DNA of 64,000 bases from Pontibacter flavimaris (GTDB lineage Bacteria; Bacteroidota; Bacteroidia; Cytophagales; Hymenobacteraceae): assembly GCF_001907195.1 (NCBI RefSeq), contig NZ_LVWA01000005.1:682001-746000 (forward strand). The letters run 5' to 3'. Of this stretch, positions 3,166 to 58,863 are shown in pieces. A program made the position numbers and the translations under genes. The notes beneath the pieces were generated by a model. That model had not been told where the DNA came from. It saw nothing but the letters and a program-made list of their open reading frames with translations, and searched no databases. Every line of letters begins with the position of its first letter. Within the stretch, counting starts at the first letter, position 1.

Positions 3166-4002
3166 ATGCAGAAAGAAAACCTAATTCAGCAAGCCCGGCA
3201 GCTAATAAACGACTTCACCGGGAAAAAGGAGCTTAGTAAAAGCAAGCTGGCCCGCAAGCTGGGCATTGCCGCCGCCGTGCTTACCCACATCGAAAACAAC
3301 CCCGCCCTGGTGTCGGAGGAGATGCTGCTCACCATCATCAACGGCCTTAAGCCGGAATCCTCCTTCAACATCCTGAGCACCTCCAACTATACCACCGTTC
3401 ACGCCATCTGCGAGGACGCGCGGCAGCGCCGCAAGCTGGTGGGCATCATCGGTTATCCGGGGGCGGGCAAGACCACGGCCCTGCAAAGCTATTACCGCAG
3501 CCATAAGAACATCTACTACGTGGAGTGCAAGAATTCCATGAACCGCAAGCAGTTCCTGCACGCGGTGCTCACCGAGATGGGCATCCAGTTCATGGGCACA
3601 GTCTACGATATGGTAAGGCTGATAAGCCAGGAACTCAACAGCAAGGAAAGCCCGCTGCTGATCATCGACGAGGCGGGCAAGATGTCCCCTAACCTGATTC
3701 TGGACCTGCACGACCTGCGCAATGCCACCATGCACAACGCGGGCATTGTGATGTCGGGCTGCGAGTACTTTAAGAAGAACATGGAGAAGGCCGCCGAGAA
3801 AGACAAGCAGGGCTACCCCGAGTTCTACAGCCGCGTGATGAACTGGCCTGTTCTGAACCGCCCCACCAAAGCCGAGATCGTCGCCATCAGCAAGAGCAAC
3901 GGCATACAGGACGAGGAGACCATCAAGGCGCTTTGCAGGCTGCGCAACTACCGCGAGCTGGAGAACGCCATCAAAAACGAGCTGTCTGAACCTGTAATTT
4001 AA
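3166..4002 (+). CDS. AAA+ ATPase, MuB/TnsC-like transposition target regulator
   Basis: 278 residues. An N-terminal HTH (about 22-60, SKSKLARKLGIAAAVLTHIEN) precedes an AAA+ core with Walker A GYPGAGKTT (96-104) and Walker B LLIIDEA (D168, E169), then the sensor-like VMSGCEYF segment and a helical C-terminus. This HTH plus AAA+ layout is that of MuB (312 residues). In Mu, MuB binds target DNA in an ATP-dependent filament, delivers it to MuA and gives target immunity. Its place directly after the transposase fits that role. No TniQ/TnsD-type targeting protein and no TnsA nuclease are nearby, which argues for Mu over Tn7. Confidence 0.9.
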   Translation: MQKENLIQQARQLINDFTGKKELSKSKLARKLGIAAAVLTHIENNPALVSEEMLLTIINGLKPESSFNILSTSNYTTVHAICEDARQRRKLVGIIGYPGAGKTTALQSYYRSHKNIYYVECKNSMNRKQFLHAVLTEMGIQFMGTVYDMVRLISQELNSKESPLLIIDEAGKMSPNLILDLHDLRNATMHNAGIVMSGCEYFKKNMEKAAEKDKQGYPEFYSRVMNWPVLNRPTKAEIVAISKSNGIQDEETIKALCRLRNYRELENAIKNELSEPVI

Positions 4003-4009
4003 CCCTGCC

Positions 4010-4120
4010 ATGAAAATACCCTGTCTATCAATCCATTGCAAGCTGTCGGAACTGGTTCAGATCATCAAACGACAAGCTAACCCAAAATATAACCTTAGCG
4101 AAAAAGAACATGGATATTAA
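4010..4120 (+). CDS. Possible 36-residue small protein in the transposition operon
   Basis: An ATG lies 7 bases after the ATPase stop and opens a 36-codon frame with two cysteines (MKIPCLSIHCKLSELVQIIK) that runs 11 bases into the next gene. Close spacing and the overlap suggest translational coupling. No family is recognised; it may be a chance ORF. Confidence 0.35.
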   Translation: MKIPCLSIHCKLSELVQIIKRQANPKYNLSEKEHGY

Positions 4121-4439
4121 AAGCACTATTACCCGTCTCGAAACATTAATTGAACACTTGCAACTGTCTCAAAACAAGTTTGCTGCAAAGTTAGGTACCT
4201 CAAGTGCAATGATGTCTCAGGTATTAAAAAAGGATAAAAATGTAGGGGTGGATTTCTTTTTTAAGCTCTTAAATGCTTACCCTAATTTGTCGTCTGAGTG
4301 GCTTTTTCGTGGCATTGGATCAATGTTTTTAGATGAACAAGCCAACCCGATAATAGCACAAGTGACACAGGAGGCTGTGCAGATACCAGTCCGAATAGAC
4401 TTGAAAATCAGCATTAATGGTAAGCAAGTAGCTTTATGA
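4110..4439 (+). CDS. XRE-family DNA-binding protein
   Basis: 109 residues. Residues about 5-70 form an XRE/Cro HTH (RLETLIEHLQLSQNKFAAKLGTSSAMMSQVLKKDKNVGVDFFFKLLNAYPNLSSEWLFRG). The SEWLF(R/N)xGxMF ending matches the family of the leftward repressor, so the two could bind related operators, as c and Ner do in Mu. The short C-terminal tail is of unknown role. It overlaps gemA-like 4436 by ATGA. Base composition is more AT-rich than the transposase and ATPase genes. Confidence 0.8.
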   Translation: MDIKSTITRLETLIEHLQLSQNKFAAKLGTSSAMMSQVLKKDKNVGVDFFFKLLNAYPNLSSEWLFRGIGSMFLDEQANPIIAQVTQEAVQIPVRIDLKISINGKQVAL

Positions 4440-4933
4440 AAAAGCGCACCGATACCCAAAACAAGAAGCTGCACCTGCTACTGAACAAGGCGGGTTTGGC
4501 AGCGGAAAAGCCTGATTTAGTGGCGTTTTACACCAACGGGCGCACTTCCTCCAGCCGGGATATGTACTTCCACGAGGCCCAGAAACTGATTGTATATCTG
4601 GAGAGCATCACCAGCAATTCTGCATCTACCCCCACCGATAGAGCAGACACAATGCGCAAAAAGGTGATCGCTATCTGCTATGAACTGGGCTGGATAGAGC
4701 CTACCGATAGCCCCGAGGAGCGGAAGATCAACATGGCCGTGATTGACGGCTTCCTTAAAAAGCGAGGGTACATCAAAAAGCCCCTGAACGAGTTTACCGT
4801 CCGGGAGTTGCCCCGCCTGATAAGCCAGTTTGAGCAGATACTGGAACACAGCAAGCAGACAGCCGGGAGCAAGGCCGTAAATAGCCTGCTGGCCGAATTG
4901 AACATACCTGTAGAGCCGTTAAAACGAAAATAG
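4436..4933 (+). CDS. GemA/gp16-like phage regulatory protein (DUF1018)
   Basis: 165 residues. The middle and C-terminal part (RKKVIAICYELGW, INMAVIDGFLKKRG, LNEFTVRELPRLISQFEQIL) follows the DUF1018 pattern of a small helical domain ending in a conserved 'Lt..e..kLI..le.i' helix, as in Mu GemA (gp16). GemA modulates host gene expression and DNA topology in Mu; its biochemical activity is poorly defined. Its presence supports a phage (Mu-like) rather than a plain transposon origin. It overlaps the upstream XRE gene by ATGA. Assigned by motif pattern only. Confidence 0.65.
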   Translation: MKKRTDTQNKKLHLLLNKAGLAAEKPDLVAFYTNGRTSSSRDMYFHEAQKLIVYLESITSNSASTPTDRADTMRKKVIAICYELGWIEPTDSPEERKINMAVIDGFLKKRGYIKKPLNEFTVRELPRLISQFEQILEHSKQTAGSKAVNSLLAELNIPVEPLKRK

Positions 4934-4934
4934 C

Positions 4935-5267
4935 ATGCGCGTTACATCATTACCCAAAGAGAAAAAGAAAGCCTTCGAGCTATATGCGGAAGGAAAGACC
5001 CAGAAAGAGATTGGCCAACTGTTGGGCATATCCGAGAAGTCCATCGGTGCCTGGAAAAAGCGCTACGAGTGGGATAAGAAGCTGCAAGAGGAACAAAAGT
5101 ATAGCCTGAAGCCCACGTTCTTGGTGCTGACCGAAGTAGACAAAGAAGCCATACAGGGCAATCCTGAAGCCTCAAAAGCCCTGAAAGATGCCATTGCAAA
5201 CATTAACTATAACCTGAAGATAGTACACCGGATTTTAACCGATAACAACCTGACTCCGAAGTCATGA
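4935..5267 (+). CDS. Small HTH protein, terminase-small-subunit-like N-terminus
   Basis: 110 residues. An N-terminal HTH (KEKKKAFELYAEGKTQKEIGQLLGISEKSIGAWKKRYEWDK) resembles the DNA-binding domain of phage terminase small subunits and of transposase HTH_23 families. The C-terminal half is helical with no recognised domain. No terminase large subunit follows, so a packaging role cannot be supported here; it could be a regulator. It follows the GemA-like gene by 1 base and overlaps the next gene by ATGA. Confidence 0.65.
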   Translation: MRVTSLPKEKKKAFELYAEGKTQKEIGQLLGISEKSIGAWKKRYEWDKKLQEEQKYSLKPTFLVLTEVDKEAIQGNPEASKALKDAIANINYNLKIVHRILTDNNLTPKS

Positions 5268-5527
5268 GAAAGAAACCCGACAATAGCAAGCATGTAAAAC
5301 TGTTTCAGGAGCTTATCGAGGTAAGCACTGAGCCTGCCCACCTCCGCAAAGTATTAACGGAGCTGTATTTTGACTACTCGCGCATGGTGATCCAGAGAGG
5401 AGTGAACGGCGGGGAGGTATACCAGGAGGCCGATGACCAACTGTACTGGCTAAGCGAACTGATAAAGATATTTGACCAGCAGACAAAGTACCCGCAGTAC
5501 TCCAACGAAGGCAACGAAGCCGCCTAA
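5264..5527 (+). CDS. Hypothetical small protein of the Mu-like operon
   Basis: 87 residues, no recognised family. Predicted mostly helical with many charged residues (VKLFQELIEVSTEPAHLRKVLTELYFDYSRMV) and an acidic middle. No signal peptide or membrane segment. It is translationally coupled to the upstream HTH gene through an ATGA overlap, so it is expressed with the transposition genes and may partner with that HTH protein (inference). Confidence 0.6.
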   Translation: MRKKPDNSKHVKLFQELIEVSTEPAHLRKVLTELYFDYSRMVIQRGVNGGEVYQEADDQLYWLSELIKIFDQQTKYPQYSNEGNEAA

Positions 5528-5599
5528 GGTCGTTTACAGCCAATAACCAACAGAAGAAGCAAGTATATAGTGTTTTTGATATAAATAGTACTTATAAGA

Positions 5600-5881
5600 A
5601 TGATTAAGATCACGCAGATTGAGAACTTGGAAGCAAAAAGCCTGTTAGAGCGGCTTCGAAGCATAGAAAGTAAGCTGGAGGAGCTGATAAGCGCTTCTAA
5701 ACCGGGAGAACCCACAGAGTACTTGACCCGTCAGGAGGTGGCCGAACTGTTTAAAGTATCGCTGCCTACTGTTCACTCCTGGACTAACAAAGGGCTTATT
5801 AAATCCTACAAGATAGCCAACAAAACACGCTTTAAGCGTTCGGAAGTAGAGGCGGCAGCAGTTGAACGGTGCCCCAAATAA
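5600..5881 (+). CDS. Excisionase/MerR-like helix-turn-helix protein
   Basis: 93 residues. A coiled-coil-like start (QIENLEAKSLLERLRSIESKLEELIS) is followed by an HTH_17/excisionase domain (LTRQEVAELFKVSLPTVHSWTNKGLIKSYKIANKTRFKRSEVEAA). Such proteins bind DNA at element ends or promoters. This exact domain pair is common in mobile elements of Bacteroidota next to integrases. It is separated from the preceding gene by a 72-base AT-rich gap and ends just ahead of the terminator, so it may have its own promoter. Confidence 0.75.
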   Translation: MIKITQIENLEAKSLLERLRSIESKLEELISASKPGEPTEYLTRQEVAELFKVSLPTVHSWTNKGLIKSYKIANKTRFKRSEVEAAAVERCPK

Positions 5882-5900
5882 GATACGTGTAAAGCAGCAG

Positions 5901-5930
5901 AAAAGCCCCTTTGATGGGGCTTTCTTGTTT
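5901..5930 (+). terminator. Rho-independent terminator of the Mu-like operon
   Basis: An 8-bp stem AAAGCCCC/GGGGCTTT (5902-5909 with 5916-5923) with a 6-base loop, followed by TCTTGTTT. It lies 20 bases after the last HTH gene and closes the rightward operon. Confidence 0.8.
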
Positions 5931-5987
5931 ATGCGAGGTAGTTTAATTCTTAGGCTGAAAAGCTCTCATAGCCCTGCAAAATAGCCA

Positions 5988-6046
5988 GAGCCGCTAAACC
6001 TGACTGTCCTATCCTGAACGGATAGCAGCCATAGGTTTAACGGCTC
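5988..6046 (+). ncRNA. Structured RNA hairpin, candidate SRP (4.5S) RNA domain IV
   Basis: A 14-bp outer stem (5988-6001 with 6033-6046, one G-U pair) encloses an inner 5-bp stem (6010-6014 with 6020-6024) capped by TGAAC. On the 3' side of the inner stem sits AGCAGCC (6024-6030), the conserved asymmetric-loop side of SRP RNA; the 5' side (CTGTCC) departs from the E. coli UCAG. The overall shape, a long rod with two internal loops and a GAA-containing cap, is that of small bacterial SRP RNA. The gene ends are not defined; flanks 5950-5987 and 6047-6130 may belong to it. It could instead be a terminator-like element of the mobile region. Confidence 0.45.
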
Positions 6047-6373
6047 CGTGCATGCTTCCTGTCAGCAGCTACCTGAATCGGACTTACTTAGTAGGCCCAC
6101 CCAGACCACAACAGGCCGCATGACCAAATATACGAGACGTTTTATAATTTAGGTTTATATATATAGTGCAATTTAAATTAAATTATCGCCTTATATGGCT
6201 TTAGTATAAATCGGAGTGTAGTTTTGATGTTGAGGGTTCAGAAAGTTTAACATTTCTAAATACCGCAATTTGAAAGTTTAAAAAACCGTTTACAAATTCC
6301 AGACCAAGACTTACGAATTTCTTCAATTCATAAGTTAGACGCACAGGGGTAATATCTAATCAATAGAGTCAAT

Positions 6374-7546
6374 ATGAGAATAATCGGATTAGCAGCGTTG
6401 CTGCTGCTCCCGCTGGTTTCCTGCGGGAAGAAAGAGAATGAAGTGCTCAATGAACCCATCATCCATACTTTTTATAGTCACATAGACACGGTAGGCGCAA
6501 ACTTAACCGTGATAGGTGAGAACTTTAGCAAACAACCCCAGCACAACGTATTAGGCTTCCAAGGGGTGGAAGTTCCTTCGCACAGGGTAAGTGGCGACAC
6601 CCTTCAGGTGCACATCCCGGCAGGGGCTAAAACCGGGAAAATCAAGCTGAAAGTCTACTCCAAAGAAACATTTAGCGAGGATACGCTATTCATCGTGAAC
6701 GGTAGGTTTAAGAGGGTGCAACCGATTCCCATCGGGCGGCATGATGCAATTGGTTTCAGTATCCGGGGCAAAGGCTATGTAGGCACAGGAAGTGGAACAG
6801 CCGGTTACCTAGGCGATATGTGGGAGTACGACCCGGGCAGAAACACCTGGGTAAAGATAAGTGACTTCCCGGTAGGGGCCCTACGAGAAGGTTTCGCTTT
6901 CGTGATAGGGGACAGGGCCTATATTGGCGGTGGAACAGAAATGGGGCAACTGAATTCCTCCCGCGCTATGTATGCATTTGACCCTACCCTGCGAACCTGG
7001 AACAGAGTGGCTGACTTTCCCGGGGTTGAAACCAGGAATGTTGTCGCCTTGGCAATAAACGGCAAGGGCTACATCATCACGGGGTTCTACTCTAAACAGG
7101 TGTGGGAGTACAACCCCGAGACGAACAGCTGGCTGAAGAAGCAAGACTTCCCGGGCTTGCGTCGCTCGGCAGCGTCGGGCTTCGTCATTAACAATAAAGG
7201 ATACGTTGGGATAGGCAATCACGGCAGCAATCCATGGCTTCAGGACCTTTGGGAGTATGATCCCGCACAGGACACTTGGATCCGGAAAAGGAGTCTGCCA
7301 AGATACATCGGCTACAACGCTGTTGGCTTTACCATTTATGATAAAGGGTACTTCATGAACGGGAACCATAACAGCAGAGCCGTGTGGGAGTACGACCATC
7401 TTGCAGATACCTGGACGCAGAAACTCCAATATCCGGGAGAAGCAAACGGCTATGCGGTTTCCTTCGTGATTGATGGAGAAGCCTATGTGGTGGGCGGCGT
7501 CGGGCATAACAAAGCCTCTGACCAGAACTGGAAGTTTATCCCTTAG
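6374..7546 (+). CDS. Kelch-repeat surface lipoprotein with IPT/TIG domain
   Basis: 390 residues. A lipoprotein signal peptide ends at LVSC (Cys17), so the protein should be anchored in the outer membrane. Residues about 28-105 resemble an IPT/TIG immunoglobulin-like domain (VGANLTVIGENFS, ending ETFSEDTLFIVNG). Residues about 115-390 form a Kelch beta-propeller: repeated units with G-(K/R)-x-Y-(V/I)-G and (M/V)WEYDPxxxxW at near-regular 50-residue spacing. Such proteins bind glycans or proteins at the cell surface; the ligand is unknown. It stands alone, with long AT-rich flanks and no operon partner. Confidence 0.85.
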   Translation: MRIIGLAALLLLPLVSCGKKENEVLNEPIIHTFYSHIDTVGANLTVIGENFSKQPQHNVLGFQGVEVPSHRVSGDTLQVHIPAGAKTGKIKLKVYSKETFSEDTLFIVNGRFKRVQPIPIGRHDAIGFSIRGKGYVGTGSGTAGYLGDMWEYDPGRNTWVKISDFPVGALREGFAFVIGDRAYIGGGTEMGQLNSSRAMYAFDPTLRTWNRVADFPGVETRNVVALAINGKGYIITGFYSKQVWEYNPETNSWLKKQDFPGLRRSAASGFVINNKGYVGIGNHGSNPWLQDLWEYDPAQDTWIRKRSLPRYIGYNAVGFTIYDKGYFMNGNHNSRAVWEYDHLADTWTQKLQYPGEANGYAVSFVIDGEAYVVGGVGHNKASDQNWKFIP

Positions 7547-7877
7547 AGGACTTAAGTATAGACGCTTTCTGTTTTTGCGTGGATGACTTTTGGTTAATTA
7601 ACAACAGATAGCATAATCCGCATCATTAACAGAAAAAGCTATACATGTTTTAAATCAATCATCGAAATACTATAGCTTATGCATAGGGTAGCCGAATGAG
7701 CAATGTTTTAAATGAGCGGAAATAAAGGAAGGTATAACCTTTTGTTAGAGAAACATTTTGCAACGCTTTGCTTCGCCCTCTGCACAGCAAAGCGTTAGCC
7801 ATCATTTGTTATCATAGAATTTGAAAAATAAGGCCCAATCAATCCACAGGCTTTTTATCATTCTCTCAATCCATTTA
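7547..7877. other. AT-rich intergenic stretch with one perfect inverted repeat
   Basis: No gene is seen. An 11-bp perfect inverted repeat (7762-7772 with 7786-7796) around a 13-base spacer ends in GTTAGCC. It lacks a T-run, so it is not a standard terminator. Its AACGC...GCGTT arms recall integron attC sites, but the core GTTRRRY is not matched and no integrase is near. Confidence 0.4.
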
Positions 7878-9608
7878 ATGAGGACATCCAAACTACTTCT
7901 GTATCTAATTTCATTTCTGGCTTATACCTCGGCAGTTTCTCAGAACCTGACCTTGAAAGGAGAGATAGTTGATAGATTTAAGAACAAGCCCGTGCCTTAT
8001 GCCACTATAGGGATAAAGGGCAAAAGCCTGGGTACTGTTGCCGACGAGAACGGTCAGTTTAGCTTTACTATTCCCGCTACTGCTGTTTCTGATGAGGAGG
8101 CTATGATTGTCTCCTGCGTTGGCTATAAAAGTGTTGAAACTACAGCCTCAGCTTTCAAGCAAGGGCATCTGCTGATTAGCCTGCCACCCGCTCAGATAAA
8201 CCTGAACGAAGTAACGATCAGGGCACGAAAGGTAAAGACGAAGACCTTCGGCAGGACAGGGAACTCCACGATGATGGTGTCCAACATGTATACAGAAAAC
8301 AACCTTTTGTCTGATGAACTAGCCAAAGAGCAAGGCACCATCATAAAGCTGGATGAGGAGGTTCTGCTGAAGGATTTCAACATGCACGTTGTGTTCAACA
8401 GGTTCAAGTACGTCAGGTTCCGCTTGAATATTTACAGCATAAAAGATGGTTTGCCTGACAAGTCGTTATTGAAGGAAGATATACGGTTTGATGTCGCGGA
8501 GAAGAAAGGCTGGGTGAAGGTGGACCTGAGCAGGTACAACGTTTTTCTGGAAGGGCAGGATAAAGTGGCGGTTACCATTCAATGGCTGCAAAGTGAGGCC
8601 ATAGCAGGCAACAGAAAATCTTTTGCTGTTTCTGCTGTTCCTCTTCCCTCTCATTCCATACTCTTCCGCGACAAAAGCCAGGACCGGTGGAAAGAGGTGA
8701 GCCCCGGCTACCTTAGCTTTTACCTCACGGCTGACTCCTATAAAGGGAAGCATAAAAGCTCCCTTTCGGAAACTCCCGCAACACAGGACTACGTGCTGCC
8801 CGACAGCCTGAAATACCTCAGGTATCTTGCAATGCAGACGCCTGCTAATCTGCAAAGCAACTATCGCTATGGAGACAGCCTGGAGGCAGGGAACTATGTA
8901 AACGTAAACAATGCCAACCTATACTATGAGATTTATGGCCAGGGAGAGCCACTCCTGCTGCTCCACGGCAACGGTCAATCCATTTCCGCTTTTTCACAGC
9001 AGATAGCAGCTCTGTCAAAGTACTTTAAAGTTATTGCCGTGGATACCCGCGCCCACGGAAGAAGCAGTGACAAAGGTTTAGGAGAGCTTACCTATGACCT
9101 GTTCGCCTCAGACATGAAGCAGTTGCTGGATTCACTGAGCCTGAAGCAAGTAAACGTTCTTGGGTGGAGCGATGGTGGCAACACGGCTCTGAAGATGGCT
9201 TTAAACCACCCTGAATACGTGAAGAAGATAGCCCTCATGGGAGCCAATCTTTTTCCAGATAAAACAGCCATAGAAAGCGGGCTTTTAGCGTTGTTCAACA
9301 AGCAGCAGGAGCAATTAATCGGCAGGGAGGATGCGCAATCACGAAACAGGTCAAGACTGCTGGGGCTGCTGCTAAATGAGCCGCAGATGAGCTTTAAAGA
9401 TATGGGCGCTGTCCGTGCCCCAGTGCTGGTGATGGCAGGGGAGCATGATGTGATCCTGGAGTCACACACCAGGGCAATTGCTGAAAGTATCAAAGGGGCA
9501 GAATTGATTATCTTTAAAGACGCCTCCCACTATGCGCCGCAGGAGATACCGATCGAGTTTAACAAAGCTGTCTTGCAGTTTTTTGCTCCTTACGACAGCA
9601 ATCTCTGA
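7878..9608 (+). CDS. Carboxypeptidase-regulatory-like domain fused to alpha/beta hydrolase
   Basis: 576 residues from the ATG at 7878, chosen because it gives a clean signal peptide (LLLYLISFLAYTSAVSQ). Residues about 24-110 are a CarboxypepD_reg-like beta domain (LKGEIVDRFKNKPVPYATIGI, GTVADENGQFSF), usual at the N-terminus of TonB-dependent receptors. A middle beta-rich region (about 130-310) is unassigned. The C-terminal 270 residues are an alpha/beta hydrolase: oxyanion HGNG, nucleophile elbow GWSDGG, acid in GEHDVI, histidine in ASHYAP. The fusion suggests a secreted or periplasmic esterase/hydrolase; the substrate is unknown. It has no operon partners. An in-frame ATG at 7821 would spoil the signal peptide. 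Confidence 0.8.
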   Translation: MRTSKLLLYLISFLAYTSAVSQNLTLKGEIVDRFKNKPVPYATIGIKGKSLGTVADENGQFSFTIPATAVSDEEAMIVSCVGYKSVETTASAFKQGHLLISLPPAQINLNEVTIRARKVKTKTFGRTGNSTMMVSNMYTENNLLSDELAKEQGTIIKLDEEVLLKDFNMHVVFNRFKYVRFRLNIYSIKDGLPDKSLLKEDIRFDVAEKKGWVKVDLSRYNVFLEGQDKVAVTIQWLQSEAIAGNRKSFAVSAVPLPSHSILFRDKSQDRWKEVSPGYLSFYLTADSYKGKHKSSLSETPATQDYVLPDSLKYLRYLAMQTPANLQSNYRYGDSLEAGNYVNVNNANLYYEIYGQGEPLLLLHGNGQSISAFSQQIAALSKYFKVIAVDTRAHGRSSDKGLGELTYDLFASDMKQLLDSLSLKQVNVLGWSDGGNTALKMALNHPEYVKKIALMGANLFPDKTAIESGLLALFNKQQEQLIGREDAQSRNRSRLLGLLLNEPQMSFKDMGAVRAPVLVMAGEHDVILESHTRAIAESIKGAELIIFKDASHYAPQEIPIEFNKAVLQFFAPYDSNL

Positions 9609-9767
9609 GGATAGTACAGAAATGCGTGTTGCCATATCGAAGCGCAGAATCTCACACAAAAAATCACGAGAGCACAAGGTACTTGTGCTTCATGCAATGT
9701 ATGAAAAGAACCTACGGGAGTAATAATTACCTCTGAACAAACAACAAGTGTAATAAATCATTATTTT

Positions 9768-9775
9768 TACCTTTG
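9768..9775 (+). promoter_or_regulatory. TAnnTTTG -7 box upstream of Fic gene
   Basis: TACCTTTG, the Bacteroidota -7 consensus, lies 36 bases upstream of the Fic ATG. No clear TTG -33 element at the ideal 19-21 base spacing was found. Confidence 0.4.
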
Positions 9776-9811
9776 TGTATAAAATAAGAGTAACTGTTAC
9801 CCTTGTCATGT

Positions 9812-10900
9812 ATGGCCCCATTTCATAGAGAAGAACCCTACAACGACTTACCCTTGCTTCCTCCGGATGCAGATCTTGAGATAAAGGAAGTTATGCGGAA
9901 GACTGTAAAGGCAAGCAGGGCTTTGGCGCAGCTGAACGGGGCTATCATCAACCTGCCTAACCCAGGCCTCTTCTTGGACACAATCCATCTGCAGGAAGCC
10001 AAGGCAAGTTCTGAAATAGAGAACATTATCACCACGAATGACGAGCTCTATAAATCAGTCGTGGCTGAAAAGAGGTATGAACCCACGGCAGCAAAAGAGG
10101 TTATAGGCTACAAGGAGGCGTTGTGGTACGGCCTGGAAAAGCTCAGAGAGCGGCCATTTATCACAACAAACCTCTGTGTGGAAATCATGCGATGTATCAA
10201 GCAGAACACATCGGGTATCAGGGCTACTCCGGGCACGACCTTATCCAATACGCAGGGCGAAGTAATCTACACGCCGCCGGCGGGGGAAACAGTAATACGC
10301 GAGAAGATGGCAAACCTGGAGCGCTTCATCAACGAGGAAAGCACGCTGGACCCGCTCATCAAAATGGCCGTCATGCACTACCAGTTCGAGGCCATACACC
10401 CGTTCATGGACGGTAACGGACGCACAGGAAGGATTTTACTTCTGCTCTATCTGAAGATGGAAAAACTGTTGGATGTGCCTGCTCTGTACTTAAGTGAGTA
10501 TATCATCCACCATAAGGCGGCCTATTACCAGAAGCTAAGGGCAGTTACGGAAGCAGGAGACTGGGAGGGCTGGATCCTCTACATGCTGGACATGATTGAA
10601 AAAACAGCAACCAGCGGACTCCAAAAACTGGAGGAGATCATGGCCGTTATGGAGGCCACCTCAGAGGAAATAAAAGAGAAACTCCCAAAGGTGCACTCAA
10701 AGGAGTTGATCGAGATCTTGTTCAGGCTGCCGTATACGAAACGCCGGTTTCTGATCGACGCGAACATGGGAACGCCAAAGACTGTGGGGAATTACCTGAT
10801 AGCGCTTGAGAAGGAAGGCTTCTTAAAAGCAACTAAGGTAGGAAAAGAAAAACTTTACCTGAACCAGCGCTTAATGGAAGTATTGGAGAATAAAGAATAA
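9812..10900 (+). CDS. Fic-family AMP-transferase (class II, self-inhibited)
   Basis: 362 residues from the ATG at 9812 (an in-frame TTG at 9803 is possible). The catalytic Fic loop is complete: HPFMDGNGRTGR at 196-207, matching HPFxDGNGRxxR. An inhibitory helix motif SSEIEN (66-71, [S/T]xxxE[G/N]) lies N-terminal to the core, which defines class II Fic proteins that hold their own active site closed. A C-terminal winged-helix-like domain (about 290-360, RRFLIDANMGTPKTVGNYLIALEKEGFL) may bind DNA. Such enzymes transfer AMP to Ser/Thr/Tyr hydroxyls of target proteins; the target is unknown. No separate antitoxin gene is adjacent. Confidence 0.9.
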   Translation: MAPFHREEPYNDLPLLPPDADLEIKEVMRKTVKASRALAQLNGAIINLPNPGLFLDTIHLQEAKASSEIENIITTNDELYKSVVAEKRYEPTAAKEVIGYKEALWYGLEKLRERPFITTNLCVEIMRCIKQNTSGIRATPGTTLSNTQGEVIYTPPAGETVIREKMANLERFINEESTLDPLIKMAVMHYQFEAIHPFMDGNGRTGRILLLLYLKMEKLLDVPALYLSEYIIHHKAAYYQKLRAVTEAGDWEGWILYMLDMIEKTATSGLQKLEEIMAVMEATSEEIKEKLPKVHSKELIEILFRLPYTKRRFLIDANMGTPKTVGNYLIALEKEGFLKATKVGKEKLYLNQRLMEVLENKE

Positions 10901-11293
10901 GCCCGAGGGCACAACACCAGCTATAGTGCATCAATGTGAAGGTGCGAAAGATGCGATACAATAAAGGATGTTGATTTAATCTTGTGCTATTACTTCTAGC
11001 AGTACCTTCCAGCCCCTGTGCTTGTTCCCAGATCTCGCCGTGGAAGGCCCTCCGCTCTAGTCTGCATTCCTGGACATCGACCGCCTACCCGCCAAACCCA
11101 GCGGAGGAGAGGGCGGCATAAGGGGAGAGGCAGCTAAAGAAGCTGGCCCTGCAGCGGCCGCAACGGCTTCATGTATCCAAGCTGCCCTCACCTTGGCTTA
11201 GCAAAGGGGGAATATAAATATTACAATATTTAGGGCGCTTTATTGTTATGGTATATGGACTGTAAAAAGGCTTAAAACAGACTGTGCATCAAC
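10901..11293. other. Intergenic region with no recognisable gene
   Basis: A GC-rich central part (about 11020-11180) contrasts with AT-rich flanks. I see no coding frame, no repeat shared with the rest of the window and no clear regulatory site. It lies between the Fic gene and the 3' side of tRNA-Arg, so it could hold remains of an insertion. Confidence 0.3.
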
Positions 11294-11330
11294 AAAAAGG
11301 CGCCAGCCACTATTGAAGTAGCTGGCGCCT
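11294..11330 (-). terminator. Terminator of tRNA-Arg
   Basis: A 10-bp perfect stem (11298-11307 with 11321-11330) followed on the minus strand by TTTTTG, 14 bases beyond the tRNA 3' end. Confidence 0.85.
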
Positions 11331-11343
11331 GAAATTGTACTTG

Positions 11344-11417
11344 TGCACCCGAGAGGATTCGAACCCCTAACCCTCGGAGCCGAAATCCGATATTCTATCC
11401 AGTTGAACTACGGGTGC
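11344..11417 (-). tRNA. tRNA-Arg (anticodon TCG)
   Basis: On the minus strand the 7-bp acceptor stem GCACCCG/CGGGTGC encloses a D arm, an anticodon arm TCGGA-TTTCGGC-TCCGA and a T arm with GGTTCGAATCC. The anticodon at loop positions 3-5 is TCG, reading CGA arginine codons. The discriminator base is A and CCA is not encoded (ACAA follows). Its 3' end faces the atypical 1-11.3 kb region, and tRNA 3' ends are common integration sites for genomic islands. Confidence 0.95.
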
Positions 11418-11569
11418 AAATGGTTTGCAAAAATAGCAAGTATACGCACAATACGAAACATCTATGGGTAAAAATATGCTAAAATCTCTACCGTGCTCAA
11501 CTTCCCAAAGACATTGCACCAATTCAGCAGTTATCCTATTATCAAAAGCAAACTTAAACAACTGATACT

Positions 11570-11940
11570 ATGAAGAAACTGTATACGGCAGAGGTTACCG
11601 CCACCGATGGACGTCGTGGCCATGTAACATCATCAGACGGAATAATTGAAATAAAACTGGCGCTTTTGGGAGGGCAGGGGGAGCCACTAACCCGGAGCAG
11701 TTACTAGCTGGTGGTAGCTGGCAAGTGCATTTGTGCTTAGATCCTGCCTCCACTGTTTCTGCACACATGGACCTGAACCAGCGGGATGATGGTGGCTTTG
11801 CCCTCAGTGTTAAGCTAGCTGTAGATCTGAAAGGCGTTGATAAGGACAAAGCGAGGGAACTGGTTGAAGAGGCGCTCCAGATTTACCTATACTCCATCGG
11901 CACGCGAGGCAACGTGGGGGTGGAGTTGAAAGTGGTTTAA
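11570..11940 (+). pseudogene. Decayed ohr (OsmC/Ohr organic hydroperoxide reductase)
   Basis: The ATG at 11570 opens a clear Ohr N-terminus (KKLYTAEVTATDGRRGHVTS, SSDGIIEIKLA). The frame then breaks near 11670-11685 and hits TAG after TRSSY; the missing family motif ATNPEQL is found in another frame, leading into the C-terminal half (MDLNQRDDGGFALSVKLAVD, GVDKDKARELVEEAL, TRGNVGVELKVV). The segment with the first catalytic cysteine (usually FAAGYSACF) is deleted, and the usual HQVCPYS is LQIYLYS, so both peroxidatic and resolving cysteines are lost. The gene cannot encode a working thiol peroxidase. No intact ohr lies in this window. Confidence 0.9.
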
Positions 11941-12008
11941 GGTAAAGTGTGGAGGAGACAAAGAGTTAAGAAAGGATATTCCATCACTCCTGAACTATCT
12001 AAGTTTCT

Positions 12009-12070
12009 GCAAAGTATAAAAACGAAAAGGGCTGCCATACTTGGCAGCCCTTTTCGTTTTTATACTTTGC
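12009..12070. terminator. Bidirectional terminator with AAGTATA in both arms
   Basis: A 29-bp perfect inverted repeat (12009-12037 with 12042-12070) with a 4-base loop TACT. It lies between the convergent ohr remnant and sucC. GGGCTGCC/GGCAGCCC stems with A- and T-rich outer arms let it work both ways. Each outer arm is the AAAGTATAAAA motif and its complement. Confidence 0.9.
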
Positions 12071-17586: not shown

Positions 17587-18461
17587 ATACGGGAAAGCTT
17601 GAATTTATACTTTGCTTTGATGTTAAGAGGCCCAATGGTTTACTCTCAATTAAGAAGACTAAAGGGAATTCCTATTGTACCGGGTCCAACCACCCCTAAC
17701 CCCTCAGAGCTACGCTCGCTACCTTCGAACTCGCGTTCTCGGTAGTCCAAGGAGGGGAGCTCTGTTGAAGCTCCGTCAGCAGCAACTTTCGAACTAGTTC
17801 CCAGTCCTTGGGTGGAGCGCCTTGTGAGATCCGGTGCTCGTCAAGGGCAGCCGCAGCGCAGCGGAGGCAGGAGGGAACACAGCGCGATGCCCGAGAGAGT
17901 TTACCCCGAAGCATTTCGGGGAGCCCTCTCGGGCTTGAGAGCACCAAAGTATGAAGTGAAACGGTAGGTTTGTAATTCTGGAGGATGAACGGGAATTTGA
18001 AAGTATAGCTTGTATCAAGTCGCGGGAAGTTAGGACTAGGGAGGGATGGCTGAAGTATAAAAGTCACAAGCGGACGCTTGCGCCAGAGAAGGCAAGTATA
18101 AAAGTATAACCAAAGTATAAAGTATGGCTTTCCAAGCCAGTCAAGTTACAAACTTGACCACATCGTAGGATACAAGTCAAAAGACTTGCACCATGGAAAA
18201 GGTAGGCATCAAAGTATAACTTAAGTATAAAACCCTGCTCATCCCTGCATCCCGTAAATCCTGATCCAGACAAGTATAAATGTATAGCCGAAGTATAAAG
18301 TATGGCTCGCGCAGGTTTGGTGATTTGGGGTAGAGCCTCTCTTCCAGCTTCCAAAACAGCGCAGCGCAGCAATTCATACTTCCCCAAAGTATAAACATCC
18401 TCCCTACCACGGACTTCTATCCTCGAAACCTTATCTTCGCAGGACAGAAACCAGCCATACC
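17587..18461. repeat. Intergenic repeat island 1: palindromic units and AAGTATA clusters
   Basis: No coding frame is supported in 875 bases. It holds (a) CCACCCCTAACCCCT...GGAGGGG inverted elements (17690-17760); (b) a nested palindrome repeat (17880-17953) with a diverged inverted copy at 26838-26889; (c) short palindromic units with variable stems and a 3' CCA tail at 18067-18085, 18140-18160 and 18173-18193; (d) at least ten AAGTAT sites, several back to back (18093-18125, 18205-18230, 18270-18305). Confidence 0.85.
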
Positions 18462-27344: not shown

Positions 27345-27392
27345 ATAAAAAATGGCTAAACCGCCGATCCATACTTCAGCAATTTAGCCATT
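27345..27392 (-). terminator. Terminator of phosphoglucomutase gene
   Basis: A 10-bp perfect stem AATGGCTAAA/TTTAGCCATT (27351-27360 with 27383-27392) followed on the minus strand by TTTTATTG. The loop carries CATACTT. Confidence 0.8.
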
Positions 27393-32295: not shown

Positions 32296-32338
32296 TGCCT
32301 CATACTTTGCAACGTGTACTTCGGGCTGATAATGAAAG

Positions 32339-32370
32339 CTCCCGCCAGCTAAAGTATAAGCTGGCGGGAG
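32339..32370. terminator. Hairpin with AAAGTATA as its loop
   Basis: A 12-bp perfect stem (32339-32350 with 32359-32370) whose 8-base loop is exactly AAAGTATA. It lies between convergent mgsA and the acyltransferase-like gene. T-runs are weak on both sides. Confidence 0.7.
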
Positions 32371-32395
32371 TTTATAGGTTGGTGCAAGTATAATT

Positions 32396-33559
32396 TTATA
32401 CTTTCACGTAGATGCGGTTGCGGTCCATCAGGTAGCCCATCAGCCAGAGCACCAGCATGTAGGCCAGGGCAAACATCAAAGAGGCGAACTCTCCCTCGCC
32501 CCAGCTCAGGAACCAGTTCTGGTATATCCAGCGGCTCAGGCGCGTCTCCTCATCCACCTTTATAAAGCTCAGGGTTTTGATGATCAGGATCGACATGGCG
32601 TAGATGAACAGCGGGTTCCTGCCGAATACCTCGAAGAAGTACGCCCATTTTCTAACCTTCAACACCTCAATCAGCAGCATAATGGCGGCCAGTACCAGCA
32701 TCACCAAACCCACGGTATGCAAGGTATAGGAACTGGTCCAGAGGGCTTTGTTGATAGGGAAAACCAGGTCCCACAGCAGGGCCACCGCAATGACGGACGC
32801 CCCGGCTATACTTAGCTTAGATACCGTACTCAGGCTGTTGCCAAGCTTTTGGATAGCCATGCCCACCAGGTAACCCGCAATCACGTTCACGGCGGCCGGC
32901 AGCGTGCTCAGCAGGCCCTCCGGGTCAAAGGGGATGCCGTAGCCTTTGTAGAGTACCTCCGGGGAGAAGAACAGCAAATCGAACTTCAGGGCCGCGTTGC
33001 CCTCCAGCGAGTAAGGGTCCGGCTGGTCGCCGAAGAAGTATAAAACGGCCCAATACCCCAGCAGCACCACCGCGCTGAAGATGATGGCTCCCTTTACTTT
33101 AAAGTAATGCACCACCAGCGAGCCGATCAGGTAGGCGAGGGCGATGCGCTGCAGCACGCCCATGATGCGGATGCCGGACCAGTCGATCATCTCCAGGCCG
33201 CCGCCCTCGGCATGCGCCACAAACGGAAAAGCCCGCAGCCCCAGCCCGATCAGGAAGATGATGGCTGTGCGCTTAAATACTTTCGCCAGGAAAACACTGT
33301 CGGGTTGCAGCTCGAACTTGCGCATGCTGAAGCTCATGGCGTTGCCCACGGCGAACAGGAAAGCAGGGAAAACCAGGTCGGTAACGGTAAAACCGTGCCA
33401 GGGGGCGTGGCGGAGTGGCGCATAGATGGTGCTCCAACTGCCCGGAGTGTTCACGATCACCATAAGCGCCACGGTGAGACCCCGCAGCACATCCAGCGAG
33501 AGGTATCGTTCCGACTTTTTCCGGGTTAAGGGTTCTGATGCTGCGACTGCGTTTGCCAT
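32396..33559 (-). CDS. Heparan-alpha-glucosaminide N-acetyltransferase-like membrane protein
   Basis: 387 residues with about ten membrane segments. The N-terminus RYLSLDVLRGLTVALMVIVNTPG with the RGL and N(x)PG features, then WHGFTVTDLVFPAFLFAVGNAMSFS, matches the DUF5009/NagX family related to lysosomal HGSNAT. Such proteins are thought to carry an acetyl group across the membrane onto amino sugars; the bacterial acceptor is unknown. Monocistronic. Confidence 0.85.
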   Translation of the reverse strand: MANAVAASEPLTRKKSERYLSLDVLRGLTVALMVIVNTPGSWSTIYAPLRHAPWHGFTVTDLVFPAFLFAVGNAMSFSMRKFELQPDSVFLAKVFKRTAIIFLIGLGLRAFPFVAHAEGGGLEMIDWSGIRIMGVLQRIALAYLIGSLVVHYFKVKGAIIFSAVVLLGYWAVLYFFGDQPDPYSLEGNAALKFDLLFFSPEVLYKGYGIPFDPEGLLSTLPAAVNVIAGYLVGMAIQKLGNSLSTVSKLSIAGASVIAVALLWDLVFPINKALWTSSYTLHTVGLVMLVLAAIMLLIEVLKVRKWAYFFEVFGRNPLFIYAMSILIIKTLSFIKVDEETRLSRWIYQNWFLSWGEGEFASLMFALAYMLVLWLMGYLMDRNRIYVKV

Positions 33560-42607: not shown

Positions 42608-42641
42608 GCGGCCTCCTGGCTATACTTTGTCCGGAGGCCGC
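42608..42641. terminator. Hairpin with TATACTT in its loop
   Basis: A 9-bp perfect stem GCGGCCTCC/GGAGGCCGC (42608-42616 with 42633-42641) around a loop containing TATACTTTG, between convergent genes. No strong T-run. Confidence 0.6.
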
Positions 42642-44286: not shown

Positions 44287-45714
44287 TCATAGCCACTTAA
44301 AGAACTTGCGCAGCATCGGCAGGCGGTTGCCGTAGGGCGGGTAGCGCAGCGGCAGGTCGAGCCAGGTGCCGCGGTGCAGCACGCTTTTCTGCTGCGAGAA
44401 CAGCTCGAAGCTGCTCTGCCCGTGGTAGCTGCCCATGCCGCTCTGGCCCACGCCGCCAAAGGGCAGGTTCGGGTTGATGATGTGCGAGATGGTATCGTTG
44501 ATACAGCCTCCCCCAAAGGAAGTATACTTCAGCACCTGCTCTTTCTTGCGCTCATCATTCGTGAAAAAGTATAATGCCAGGGGTTTCTCGCGTTGTTGTA
44601 CCATACCGATGGCCTCGTCTAAATGCTGGAAGGACAGCACCGGCAGTATCGGCCCGAAAATCTCCTCCTGCATAATAGGGTGCTGCCACGTCACCCGGTC
44701 CAGCAGGGTGGGGGCGATGTAGCGGCTGGCGGCATCGGTTACGCCGCCGGTGCGAACCTTGCCCTCACTCATGAAACCGCTGAGGCGGTTAAAGTGCCTG
44801 TCGTTCACGATGCGGGCAAAGTCGGGGCTTTGCCTGGGGTCTTCGCCGTAGAAATCCCTGATGCACTGGCTGATGAGCTGCAGGAGCTCCTCTTTTATAC
44901 TTTCCTGCGCCAGCAGGTAATCCGGGGCGATGCAGGTTTGCCCGGCGTTCAGAAATTTTCCCCAGGCAATGCGGCGTGCGGCCAGTCCCAGGTCGGCATC
45001 CTCGGCCACGATGGCGGGGCTTTTTCCGCCTAGTTCCAGTGTTACCGGTGTCAGGTGCTCGGCCGCGGCTTTCATCACGATCTTGCCCACCTGCGTGCTA
45101 CCCGTAAAAAAGATATAGTCGAAGCGCTGCTGCAAAAGGTGCTGCGTCGTGGGTGCGCCTCCCTCCACGGTGGCAATGTAAGACTCGTCAAAGTGCTGCC
45201 GTATCATCCTGGCAACCACAGCAGAGGTGGTGGGCGTAAGCTCGGATGGCTTTACGATAGCGCAGTTGCCGGCGGCCATGGCCCCAATGAGCGGGTTGAG
45301 CAGCAGTTGAAACGGGTAGTTCCAGGGGCCAATGATCAGGGCGACGCCGAAGGGGTCGGAGTGGATATAGCTGCGCGACGGGAAATTGAGGAGCGACTCC
45401 TTCACCCGCTTCGGTTTGGCCCACTTCTGCAGGTTCTTCAGTACCAGCTTCAGCTCCAGTTCCACAAACCCGATCTCGGTACTGAAGGCCTCCATCTCCG
45501 GCTTGTGGAAATCGGCGTACATGGCGTCCATCAAGTCCTGCTCGTGCTCTTGTATGGTATGCTGCAGCTCGCGTAGCCGCTCTTTCCGGAAAGCCAGGTC
45601 CAGGGTATGGCCGGAAGAGAAGAACTCACGCTGTTTCTTCACAAGCGCTTGTATGCGGTGCAGGTTTGTCTCTGCAGTGGCCGGCGAGGTGCGTATGGTG
45701 TTGGTGTGAGACAT
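44287..45714 (-). CDS. Aldehyde dehydrogenase (ALDH3-like)
   Basis: 475 residues. NAD-binding GPWNYPFQLLLNPLIGAMAAGNCAIVKPSE, catalytic glutamate E227 in VTLELGGKSP and catalytic cysteine C261 in FLNAGQTCIAPD are intact. The PWNYP start and the C-terminal FGGVGQSGMGSYHGQSSFELFSQQKSV are those of class 3 / YwdH-type aldehyde dehydrogenases, which oxidise medium- and long-chain or aromatic aldehydes to acids. A hydrophobic C-terminal FFKWL end is present but no real membrane anchor. Confidence 0.95.
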   Translation of the reverse strand: MSHTNTIRTSPATAETNLHRIQALVKKQREFFSSGHTLDLAFRKERLRELQHTIQEHEQDLMDAMYADFHKPEMEAFSTEIGFVELELKLVLKNLQKWAKPKRVKESLLNFPSRSYIHSDPFGVALIIGPWNYPFQLLLNPLIGAMAAGNCAIVKPSELTPTTSAVVARMIRQHFDESYIATVEGGAPTTQHLLQQRFDYIFFTGSTQVGKIVMKAAAEHLTPVTLELGGKSPAIVAEDADLGLAARRIAWGKFLNAGQTCIAPDYLLAQESIKEELLQLISQCIRDFYGEDPRQSPDFARIVNDRHFNRLSGFMSEGKVRTGGVTDAASRYIAPTLLDRVTWQHPIMQEEIFGPILPVLSFQHLDEAIGMVQQREKPLALYFFTNDERKKEQVLKYTSFGGGCINDTISHIINPNLPFGGVGQSGMGSYHGQSSFELFSQQKSVLHRGTWLDLPLRYPPYGNRLPMLRKFFKWL

Positions 45715-46898: not shown

Positions 46899-47639
46899 AT
46901 GGCAAGAAGACACATAGTTGATATATTCGTTCCGTGCTTCGTGGATCAGCTCTTTCCGGACACGGCCATGAACATGGTGAAGGTGCTGGAGAAGGTGGGC
47001 TGCGACGTGCGCTACAACCCCAACCAGACCTGCTGCGGACAACCCGCCTACAACGCCGGCTTCTTTGACGAGGCCCGTGAAGTGGCCGATAAGTTTCTGG
47101 AGGATTTCACAGGCGATACTTCCCATTACATCGTGGCGCCCTCGGCCTCCTGCGTGGGCATGGTGCGCAATGCCTACCAGGATATCTTCGTAAAATCCTC
47201 GAAGCTGGTACAGTACCGGGCTATGCAGAAAAAAGTATACGAGCTGACTGAGTTCCTGACCGACGTGCTGGGCATCACCCGCATTGAGGGCGCCTCGCTG
47301 CCCGGCCTCTATACCTACCACGACTCCTGCAGCGCTCTGCGCGAGTGTGGCATCAAGGCGGGCCCGCGTGAGCTCCTGAGCCACGTGCGGGGGCTGGAAC
47401 TGGTGGAGATGGAGGATAATGAGACCTGCTGCGGCTTTGGCGGCACCTTTGCCGTGAAGTTCGAGGCGATCTCGACGGCCATGGCTGAGCAGAAGGTAGA
47501 CAACGCCCTCGCCACCGGCGCTGATTACATCATCTCCACCGACAGTAGTTGCCTGATGCACCTGGAGGCCTACATCAAAAAGCAGAACAAGCCCATCAAA
47601 ACCATGCACATCGCCGACGTGCTGGCCAGCGGCTGGTAA
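46899..47639 (+). CDS. LutA/YkgE-type (CCG-domain) Fe-S oxidoreductase subunit
   Basis: 246 residues with two cysteine-rich CCG domains: NQTCCGQPAYNAGF (near residue 48) and DNETCCGFGGTFAVKF (near 190), plus CFVDQ near the start and APSASCVGM, HDSCSA between. These bind [4Fe-4S] clusters or a thiol-based cofactor. LutA works with LutB and LutC in L-lactate oxidation, but neither is here. Pairing with HMG-CoA lyase suggests a redox step coupled to acyl-CoA metabolism; this is inference. Confidence 0.9.
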   Translation: MARRHIVDIFVPCFVDQLFPDTAMNMVKVLEKVGCDVRYNPNQTCCGQPAYNAGFFDEAREVADKFLEDFTGDTSHYIVAPSASCVGMVRNAYQDIFVKSSKLVQYRAMQKKVYELTEFLTDVLGITRIEGASLPGLYTYHDSCSALRECGIKAGPRELLSHVRGLELVEMEDNETCCGFGGTFAVKFEAISTAMAEQKVDNALATGADYIISTDSSCLMHLEAYIKKQNKPIKTMHIADVLASGW

Positions 47640-47658
47640 GTATAAATACCTTCTTGAA

Positions 47659-47713
47659 GTATAAAAAGAGCGTCCTGTGCAAGTATAGTTTGCACAGGAC
47701 GCTCTTTTTATAC
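47659..47713. terminator. Bidirectional terminator built with AAGTATA in arms and loop
   Basis: A 24-bp perfect inverted repeat (47659-47682 with 47690-47713), loop GTATAGT. A-rich 5' and T-rich 3' arms allow termination in both directions between the convergent LutA-like and barrel genes. Four AAGTATA sites fall within 47638-47724. Confidence 0.9.
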
Positions 47714-47726
47714 GTGTTATACTTGG

Positions 47727-48407
47727 TTAGCGGCTGATGTAGTAGCCGAAGCCAAAGGAAAGGGTGCTGCCATCCAGGTTCAGGCCAAAGTTTGAAGAGG
47801 TTGACTTATAATCGTTAACGTATTCTAGCTTTGATTTTGATGTATTGCGTGTATATCCCAGGTTCCCAAAGCTAGCACTCAATCCTATTTTCTCTGTTGG
47901 GAAAAAGGTGATGCCCGGTTTTACACCAGCACTGAAACCCGTGGACTCATTATCAGATGATCCTGAACTGCCGCTAGTATTCTCTGAATAGGACTCGTAT
48001 TCAGCCGAAACATAATTGACATAAGCTTGGCCAGTAAATGCAATTTTCTCTGAAATAGAGAAATACTTTTTTAAGTAAGGTCCAATAGCAAAACTGCGAT
48101 TTGAGGTTTCACTTGTTGAATACAGTTGAAGACTGCCATCCGGTAGAACGGAGTGAACTTTTGTTTCATCGATGGATGAAGTATAACCTACGGACATGCC
48201 CGCTTCCAAGCCATCTCTTAGCATGTATCCTACACTGGGAGCTATCGTGAAGGATCTGTTGCCAGTCTTATGCGTGACGGCGTCGCTTTTGAAAGTATTA
48301 TTCTGATAGTTTAGGGAGCCGGAGACCACGATGGTACCCTGAGACGTCTGGGCAAAAGCGGCGGAACCGATGCATGCGAGGAGAGCGGTAAGCAATAGTT
48401 TCTTCAT
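47727..48407 (-). CDS. Outer-membrane beta-barrel protein (paralogue A)
   Basis: 226 residues from MKKLLLTALLACIGSAAFAQ, a Sec signal peptide. The start SQGTIVVSGSLNYQNNTFKSD and eight amphipathic strand candidates end in LNLDGSTLSFGFGYYISR, with a terminal aromatic strand. It looks like an eight-strand OmpA/OmpX-type barrel (porin family). Its neighbour at 48559-49206 shares the signal peptide, the TSQGT(I/V)VV start, LKKYF(S/M)(I/L)SE, PGITYFPT(E/D)K(I/L)G(L/I)S and the YYI(S/N)R end, so the two are tandem duplicates. Confidence 0.88.
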   Translation of the reverse strand: MKKLLLTALLACIGSAAFAQTSQGTIVVSGSLNYQNNTFKSDAVTHKTGNRSFTIAPSVGYMLRDGLEAGMSVGYTSSIDETKVHSVLPDGSLQLYSTSETSNRSFAIGPYLKKYFSISEKIAFTGQAYVNYVSAEYESYSENTSGSSGSSDNESTGFSAGVKPGITFFPTEKIGLSASFGNLGYTRNTSKSKLEYVNDYKSTSSNFGLNLDGSTLSFGFGYYISR

Positions 48408-48558
48408 GGTTTGTCTTCTTTGGGAATTTAGGATTTTATACTTAGTTGAAATAAAAAGGCATTTTGGAGAAAGCGTGGCAGTGTAGAGATTCCCATACTT
48501 CATCATCTGGGGAACACCGAGGAGCATTGGTGCCTGCACAGCTGCAAATGGCCTTAGT

Positions 48559-54911: not shown

Positions 54912-54953
54912 CGCGACAGCACCTGTTACACCAGCAGGTGCTGTCGCGTTTTA
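54912..54953 (+). terminator. Terminator after low-complexity gene 2
   Basis: A 14-bp perfect stem (54912-54925 with 54935-54948) with a 9-base loop, followed by TTTTAT. Confidence 0.85.
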
Positions 54954-57189: not shown

Positions 57190-57234
57190 TATAAAAAAGA
57201 AACCGGCAGAAGTATAAAAGCTACTGCCGGTTTC
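57190..57234 (-). terminator. Terminator of persulfide dioxygenase gene, AAGTATA in loop
   Basis: An 11-bp perfect stem GAAACCGGCAG/CTGCCGGTTTC (57199-57209 with 57224-57234); the 14-base loop begins AAGTATAAAA. On the minus strand TTTTTTATACTT follows. AAGTATA sites also flank the hairpin on both sides. Confidence 0.85.
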
Positions 57235-58824: not shown

Positions 58825-58863
58825 TATAAAAAAAGCCTTCCTGAAGTAATCAGGAAGGCTTTT
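58825..58863 (-). terminator. Terminator of the subtilase gene
   Basis: A 14-bp perfect stem (58831-58844 with 58850-58863), 5-base loop; on the minus strand TTTATACTT follows, so the T-run is continuous with a TATACTT motif. Confidence 0.85.

Follow-up and report, generated by a model that had tools for sequence, protein, structure and literature searches.

The receptors of the known self-DNA tags are type IV pilins. In genomes with DUS, dialects of the tag follow phylogeny and inverted pairs of it are found at terminators (PMC3630211), and genomic islands have been recognised by missing DUS (PMC7371117). Up to 22% of the terminators in Pasteurellaceae, and up to 37% in Neisseriaceae, contain such a tag (PMC13020248). 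A 2025 article names these two families, both with type IV pili, as the only ones known to recognise self-DNA through a short motif, with CTG as the core of the tag in DUS and GCGG in USS (PMC12616744). Within the Bacteroidota, Riemerella is transformed with ComEC, DprA, ComF and RecA together with unfamiliar surface proteins (PMC8459023), and R. columbina, a relative in this phylum, prefers its own DNA (PMC7965970).

The window analysed here is a stretch of 64,000 nucleotides, positions 682001-746000 of contig C5 (NZ_LVWA01000005.1), in the 4.62-Mb genome of Pontibacter flavimaris. This genome is labelled G000 and was compared with a congener panel of 50 Pontibacter genomes (G009, G021 and so on). 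For the aldehyde dehydrogenase encoded at 44287-45714, the closest named relatives were those of P. litorisediminis (86% identity), P. anaerobius (83%) and P. mangrovi (76%). Genome-wide, AAGTATAA was present in 6609 copies (3449 and 3160 by strand), against 88 (40 and 48) for a reversed control, and 884 kb contained 1167 copies where trinucleotide frequencies predicted 29.5 (40x). The consensus (A)AAGTATRR is asymmetric, AT-rich and continuous around TAT, with no clear signal past approximately nine bases. One-letter changes at motif positions 1-6 lowered the frequency to 0.7-3.9 fold of expectation; the largest residual excess among them was that of AACTATAA (3.9x), and AGGTATAA reached 2.3x, both being changes toward other dialects. 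Tolerated variants were a G at position 7 (11.5x) and a G or C at position 8 (18.3x and 7.9x, respectively).

Whole-genome counts assigned 20 of the 50 Pontibacter genomes to the AAGTATAA (AAG) dialect, with totals of 2246-7030 copies, 12 to a AGGTATAG (AGG) dialect with 2823-5222 copies and 5 to a AACTATAG (AAC) dialect with 6288-8208 copies; G065, one of the latter, also holds 2125 copies of AAGTATAA. AAG and AAC forms were both substantial in two mixed genomes (G026 and G032), and little or no motif was found in the other 11. The three dialects together cover 39 of the 50 congeners, and the AGG and AAC forms emerged from unguided k-mer counts. When the pooled pattern ARSTATAR was counted in the motif-poor genomes, G025, G027 and G069 showed at most 1.2 fold of the reversed control, while the other eight lay 1.5-3.6 fold above it. 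All 100 genomes examined from five other genera of the family were within approximately 1.4 fold of the control, and 22 genomes from other families of the order showed no comparable AAGTATAA excess.

In a midpoint-rooted ComEC tree of 48 of the 50 genomes (G009 and G021 were omitted), the AGG genomes formed a single group (support 94/99), as did the AAC genomes plus the two mixed ones (100/100). The AAG labels required five changes on this tree, as did the motif-poor labels, and all dialect labels together required 9 changes versus 25.3 in shuffles. An AAG-like ancestor with dialect shifts and repeated losses would fit the tree as rooted at its midpoint. A k-mer search for a further dialect gave no clear candidate in G027, G024, G002 and G007, the samples of the last two being 40-46 kb. 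A 25-kb sample of G010 was free of the tag, yet its whole genome holds 5128 copies of AGGTATAG; small samples can thus mislead, which weakens the k-mer negative for G002 and G007. A weak GGTATAA/GGTATGG signal was seen in G036, and 20 kb of G069 gave ATATATAR as a possible one. In a sample of the motif-less G027, intergenic TGCCACCA and TGTCTGAA/TCAGACAA were in excess (16-19 copies versus less than 1 expected), which suggests an interspersed repeat. Separately, approximately 39 copies of AGGTATAG, regularly spaced at about 66 bp, were found at 1944098-1946633 of contig C1 of the AAG-dialect genome G019, probably as a CRISPR-like or tandem array.

Like the DUS of Neisseriaceae, the Pontibacter motif is present in thousands of short copies and has dialects that differ by a few bases and track phylogeny (PMC3630211). 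It also resembles DUS in a probable association with terminators and in the occurrence of islands with missing or foreign tags (PMC3630211, PMC7371117), but it differs in sequence and phylum, and uptake in Pontibacter is a prediction from genomes. With the USS of Pasteurellaceae, which has two dialects and in some species sits in as many as 22% of the terminators, it has in common that it is an abundant, asymmetric tag (PMC12616744, PMC13020248). In contrast to the discontinuous, longer USS with its GCGG core, the Pontibacter motif spans approximately nine continuous bases around TAT without flanking signal, and its consensus contains neither the DUS core CTG nor the USS core GCGG. Of the properties that mark DUS and USS, the motif shows copies on either strand, inside genes as well as between them, phylogeny-following dialects and depletion on motif-poor stretches. 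Riemerella belongs to the same phylum, has ComEC and DprA and, in R. columbina, prefers its own DNA (PMC8459023, PMC7965970); however, the k-mers listed there are poly-A-like, with their role left open by the authors, and do not establish a dense tag.

Genes were called as open frames of at least 80 amino acids, so that "intergenic" DNA here also covers RNA genes and genes that were overlooked. A 464-kb sample held 565 copies of AAGTAT between called genes (9.4 per kb) and 990 of the total of 1555 inside them (2.45 per kb). Within genes, the motif exceeded the codon-shuffled expectation in all six frame/strand classes, and its spacing was clustered rather than even (CV 1.48). Copies were dense just past stop codons and in convergent gaps; in the AAG set, the density peaked at 12.8 per kb within 25 bp downstream of the stop codon, versus 7.0-10.0 per kb farther on, and copies downstream of genes had no general orientation (287:306). 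A local cluster of ten AAGTATA on the forward strand occupies approximately 390 bp of the window at 18001-18393.

Alignment of the window with four species of the same dialect showed that 23/47, 17/50, 19/53 and 4/13 AAGTAT sites were kept (31-49%). For permuted 6-mers the corresponding values were 29%, 29%, 28% and 10%, and only the first alignment (23/47) differed from them at p < 0.05. In two AGG species, 0/14 and 0/13 of the window sites were kept. Motif density is maintained while individual copies turn over fast. Among the alignable AGGTAT sites of AGG-dialect loci, in which homologous sites of several species are counted separately, 24/213 sit on an AAGTAT of P. flavimaris, compared with 3/335 when this base change is set in scrambled contexts (p 5e-8) and 11/196 for other one-transition neighbours of AAGTAT, a borderline difference (p 0.051). 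This test superseded a first one on 44.6 kb of aligned sequence (11/81 sites). One example lies at the end of the gene at 46899-47639, where TGGTAAGTATAA of the window corresponds to TGGTAAGGTATAG in P. lucknowensis (AGG dialect), P. aquaedesilientis having neither.

The motif was unevenly spread along the contig. In the backbone of the window (12001-64000), 183 AAGTATR were counted on both strands (3.52 per kb), and the density on the rest of C5:1-645 kb was 3.42 per kb. Four stretches were motif-poor: positions 1-12000 of the window (5 AAGTATR, 0.42 per kb), C5:92-111 kb (0.58 per kb, GC 0.36), C5:222-296 kb (0.78 per kb) and C5:645-680 kb (0.86 per kb). Their 0.42-0.86 copies per kb compare with 3.4-3.5 elsewhere, i.e., 4-8 fold fewer despite a higher A+T content. 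Since an AT-rich motif is here rarer in more AT-rich DNA, the depletion is not a composition effect. Annotation of 28 selected proteins identified integrase or transposase-type genes in two of the four stretches and a polysaccharide cluster in one. The start of the window encodes Mu-transposase C-terminal, AAA_22 and Fic domains; C5:92-111 kb carries polysaccharide and sulfate genes; C5:222-296 kb carries an integrase, two reverse-transcriptase proteins, RNA-repair proteins and Fic; and a mobile hallmark was found in none of the five proteins scanned from C5:645-680 kb. The Mu-transposase-C and AAA_22 genes stand side by side at 1188-4002 of the window, within its motif-poor start, and are a pair that we take to be TnsB/TnsC-like. 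One reverse-transcriptase protein of C5:222000-296000 has a conflict-type histidine-kinase domain, and Hen1, PNKP-ligase RNA repair and AAA_15 are encoded there as well; this region looks like a defence island.

Genes for a possible route of DNA entry were present throughout the panel. Matches to ComEC and to DprA were found in all 50 genomes, and a small HHH (ComEA-like) protein, in an open frame of 304-346 amino acids, in 49. The PilT family was over the cut-off in 0/50 genomes, with one weak match, in contrast to the type IV pilus uptake machinery of DUS and USS systems. T2SSE was over the cut-off in 3/50 genomes with matches spanning approximately 60 of 370 positions or fewer, and DUF5689 was found in 22/50 without a pattern relative to the motif. 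None of the families searched in the 50 genomes (PilT, ComEC, DprA, DUF5689, HHH_3 and T2SSE) tracks the motif. The motif-less G025, G027 and G069, too, have intact ComEC, DprA and small HHH proteins. In G021, internal stops were seen in ComEC, DprA and the small HHH protein, whereas a large HHH protein was complete. Among the 20 AAG genomes, only one has fewer copies of AAGTATAA than the 2537 of G021. G009 has internal stops in ComEC and DprA, yet holds 5041 copies of AGGTATAG; in the other 48 genomes the ComEC and DprA matches were free of stops. For G009, the genes may have been lost recently or misassembled; otherwise, this genome speaks against a simple link.

We consider it rather probable that AAGTATRR is a genome-wide tag of natural transformation that prefers self-DNA, read by a putative non-PilT receptor and partly co-opted in terminators. 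A candidate surface or periplasmic receptor, not of the PilT-pilus kind, would prefer tagged DNA, which would enter via ComEC, with DprA and RecA aiding its recombination. Recombination would spread tagged alleles and so replace copies lost by mutation, as a form of drive, and a shift in receptor specificity would lead to slow rewriting of the genome to another dialect (AAG, AGG or AAC before TATAR). Copies would settle where they are least harmful, most densely right after stop codons, and there the AAG dialect, with its TTTATACTT T-run, may have been co-opted inward at hairpin bases and flanks as part of terminators. We infer, in this model, the specificity of uptake, its receptor, the direction in which dialects changed and the ending of transcripts. 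Points that speak against it are the lack of a gene family tracking the motif, the absence of PilT over the cut-off, the many tag copies of G009 despite its interrupted genes, the clustered spacing within genes, the strand ratio of 1133:856 on C5 and the borderline result for other one-transition neighbours. As a third self-DNA tag the motif is a strong candidate; open-licence full texts yielded no description of one in this phylum and with this machinery. In the same texts, preprints being outside their scope, we found no report of an uptake or transformation experiment in Pontibacter and no earlier report of this tag. The chances seem evenly balanced that it is a third, independently evolved self-DNA code, in Bacteroidota without a PilT-type retractile pilus, with at least three dialects (AAG-, AGG- and AAC-TATAR) in one genus, a code that several lineages have weakened or lost and that shapes terminators depending on whether the letters of a dialect can provide a U-tract. 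If this holds, convergent evolution of self-DNA preference would become directly testable, and a protein whose variation tracks the three dialects would offer a handle on the DNA receptor of Bacteroidota. The motif would also aid in spotting foreign islands and would show an uptake tag woven into terminators where its letters fit.

A DNA methyltransferase or methylation-directed repair that recognises the motif, and thereby creates or protects it, could also yield abundant copies, with dialects reflecting changes in enzyme specificity. HIP1 and the alternate HIPs of cyanobacteria provide a precedent, as they have a similar density, alternate motifs that replace each other between species, and matching methyltransferases (PMC4390886). 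HIPs are, however, GC-rich palindromes tied to methyltransferases (PMC4390886), whereas the Pontibacter motif is AT-rich and asymmetric and is not palindromic. AAGTATAC, the start of a palindromic form, has 268 copies (7.9x), compared with 1167 (40x) for AAGTATAA. Depletion on islands in the same cell is, moreover, not what a process inside the cell would be expected to produce at once, although recently gained islands might not have caught up yet. On this evidence, we regard such an origin as unlikely.

Polar signals such as Chi or segregation sites show strong strand bias relative to replication. On C5:1-680 kb, where the sign of GC skew is constant, the strand ratio of the motif, counted without reference to the replication origin, was just 1133:856, which seems weak for a polar signal. 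The enrichment in gaps and just past stop codons and the fast turnover of single sites also argue against an intracellular processing or packaging signal, i.e., a site for Chi-like recombination, segregation or a nucleoid protein whose recogniser changed specificity. The very high density speaks for such a signal, Chi being one known class of over-represented oligomers (PMC4390886), but on balance this explanation appears improbable.

The preliminary description of the window had proposed that AAGTATA is built into transcription terminators and had emphasised its placement in hairpin loops. Intrinsic terminators combine a GC-rich stem with a U-run behind it and end transcripts. Hairpins were called with one mismatch permitted, G-U pairs excluded and loops of 3-12. 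Tests were run at several thresholds with uncorrected p-values, which are optimistic because both sides of a hairpin and pooled homologous loci of several species are non-independent. For intergenic stems of at least 12 bp, the motif core lay inside or at most 25 bp away in 88/162 hairpins of the AAG set (16 in the loop, 21 in both arms and 67 in a flank, with overlap between classes), in 50/129 of AGG and in 16/36 of AAC. Compared with random intergenic DNA from the respective genome, loop copies in P. flavimaris were in excess for stems of at least 12 bp (15/91 vs 6.6%, p 0.0009), and not for stems of at least 10 bp (16/178 vs 6.7%, p 0.14) or for the 60 of these 178 hairpins with a T-tail on one or both sides (6/60 vs 7.3%, p 0.27); in the AGG-dialect genome G014, 12/106 compared with 2.1% (p 3e-6).

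Comparison with the same intergenic region used 279 AAG hairpins from 14 genomes, 171 AGG and 69 AAC hairpins, after exclusion of 9/288 AAG and 5/176 AGG hairpins that lay outside a gap between two called genes (AAC, 69/69 retained). Against this background, the excess in loops shrank or vanished: 17/279 vs 7.1% for AAG (p 0.78), 16/157 vs 7.2% for AAG stems of at least 12 bp (p 0.11), a weak excess of 12/101 vs 6.4% for stems of at least 14 bp (p 0.027), 13/171 vs 4.7% for AGG (p 0.063) and 6/69 vs 7.7% for AAC (p 0.44). Loop copies thus roughly match the local motif density, hairpins sitting where the motif is dense anyway, past stop codons and in convergent gaps. The emphasis on loops was therefore overstated, and loop placement as a special mechanism was dropped as a main effect. 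Hairpin edges with 25-bp flanks gave a different result for stems of at least 10 bp, with the motif in 139/558 AAG segments vs 17.0% (p 2e-6) and in 49/342 AGG segments vs 8.3% (p 1.5e-4), and no overall enrichment for AAC (31/138 vs 18.8%, p 0.16); these expectations were drawn from the 224/279 AAG, 118/171 AGG and 55/69 AAC hairpins with sufficient free region. In loops, then, the motif was hardly commoner than in other DNA of the same intergenic region, whereas at edges it was.

AAG copies at hairpins point inward, by 69:35 in flanks (15 hairpins having both kinds) and 22:8 within arms, as do AAC copies (18:3), whereas AGG copies are unbiased (21:25). With an inward AAG copy, the T-run of its reverse complement TTTATACTT follows the stem whichever strand is read; CTATACCT, the AGG counterpart, cannot form a U-run. 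The contrast between AAG and AGG fits, in part, co-option by letter content. The U-tract is not the whole explanation, because the enriched AGG edges show no orientation and AAC copies are oriented although their reverse complement has fewer T. What remains differs from what the preliminary reading emphasised: motif copies sit at the base and in the flanks of hairpins, facing inward in the AAG dialect. The hairpins themselves are real, though a side effect, and the larger result, several dialects in one genus, goes beyond the positions listed in that reading. That the motif exists in the first place as part of terminators or of another RNA 3'-end signal is highly improbable, since the enrichment and inward orientation at hairpin edges and the peak of 12.8 per kb past stop codons in the AAG set are set against 990 of 1555 copies lying inside called genes in all six phases, the lack of general orientation after stop codons (287:306) and the unoriented AGG copies at hairpins.

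The individual structures in the window, mostly very stable when folded, can be described as follows. Most of the arm, loop and flank copies of AAGTATA listed in the preliminary description were seen. The hairpin at 12009-12070 has a 29-bp perfect stem (-49.3 kcal/mol) with an inward motif in both outer arms and CCATACTT at its tip; that at 32336-32373 has a 15-bp stem and an 8-base loop that is exactly AAAGTATA; and the loop at 42608-42641, GCTATACTTTGT, contains TATACTT. A 14-bp hairpin at 57199-57234 carries AAGTATAA at its loop (57210) and is flanked by inward copies at 57187 and 57241, and another at 58831-58863 has inward flank copies at 58822 and 58875. CATACTT does lie in the loop region at 27351-27392, but this is only a weak imperfect hairpin (-14.4 kcal/mol), missing from the list of the hairpin caller. 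For 47659-47713, a 24-bp stem between the genes at 46899-47639 (forward) and 47727-48539 (reverse), the copy in the loop (47681-47687) was found as described, whereas of those ascribed to the arms the left one, at 47657, pairs only in part and the right one is reduced to TATAC. The loop sequence at 47681 is the same in P. litorisediminis and the exact reverse complement at the same place in P. mangrovi, so that orientation within the loop seems not to matter. This hairpin is enclosed by an outer inverted pair at 47638-47724, AAGTATA at 47638, overlapping the stop codon of the gene at 46899-47639, and TATACTT at 47718; the enclosed sequence folds with -45 kcal/mol (z -10.4). A consensus terminator scan left 47659-47713 uncalled and called 1 other site, versus 2.3 expected by chance. 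At 32382-32407, a small hairpin is formed by an inward pair of the motif itself, AAGTATA and TATACTT. A 16-bp hairpin at 54912-54948 is a counter-case to the inward rule, its flank copies at 54891 and 54956 pointing outward.
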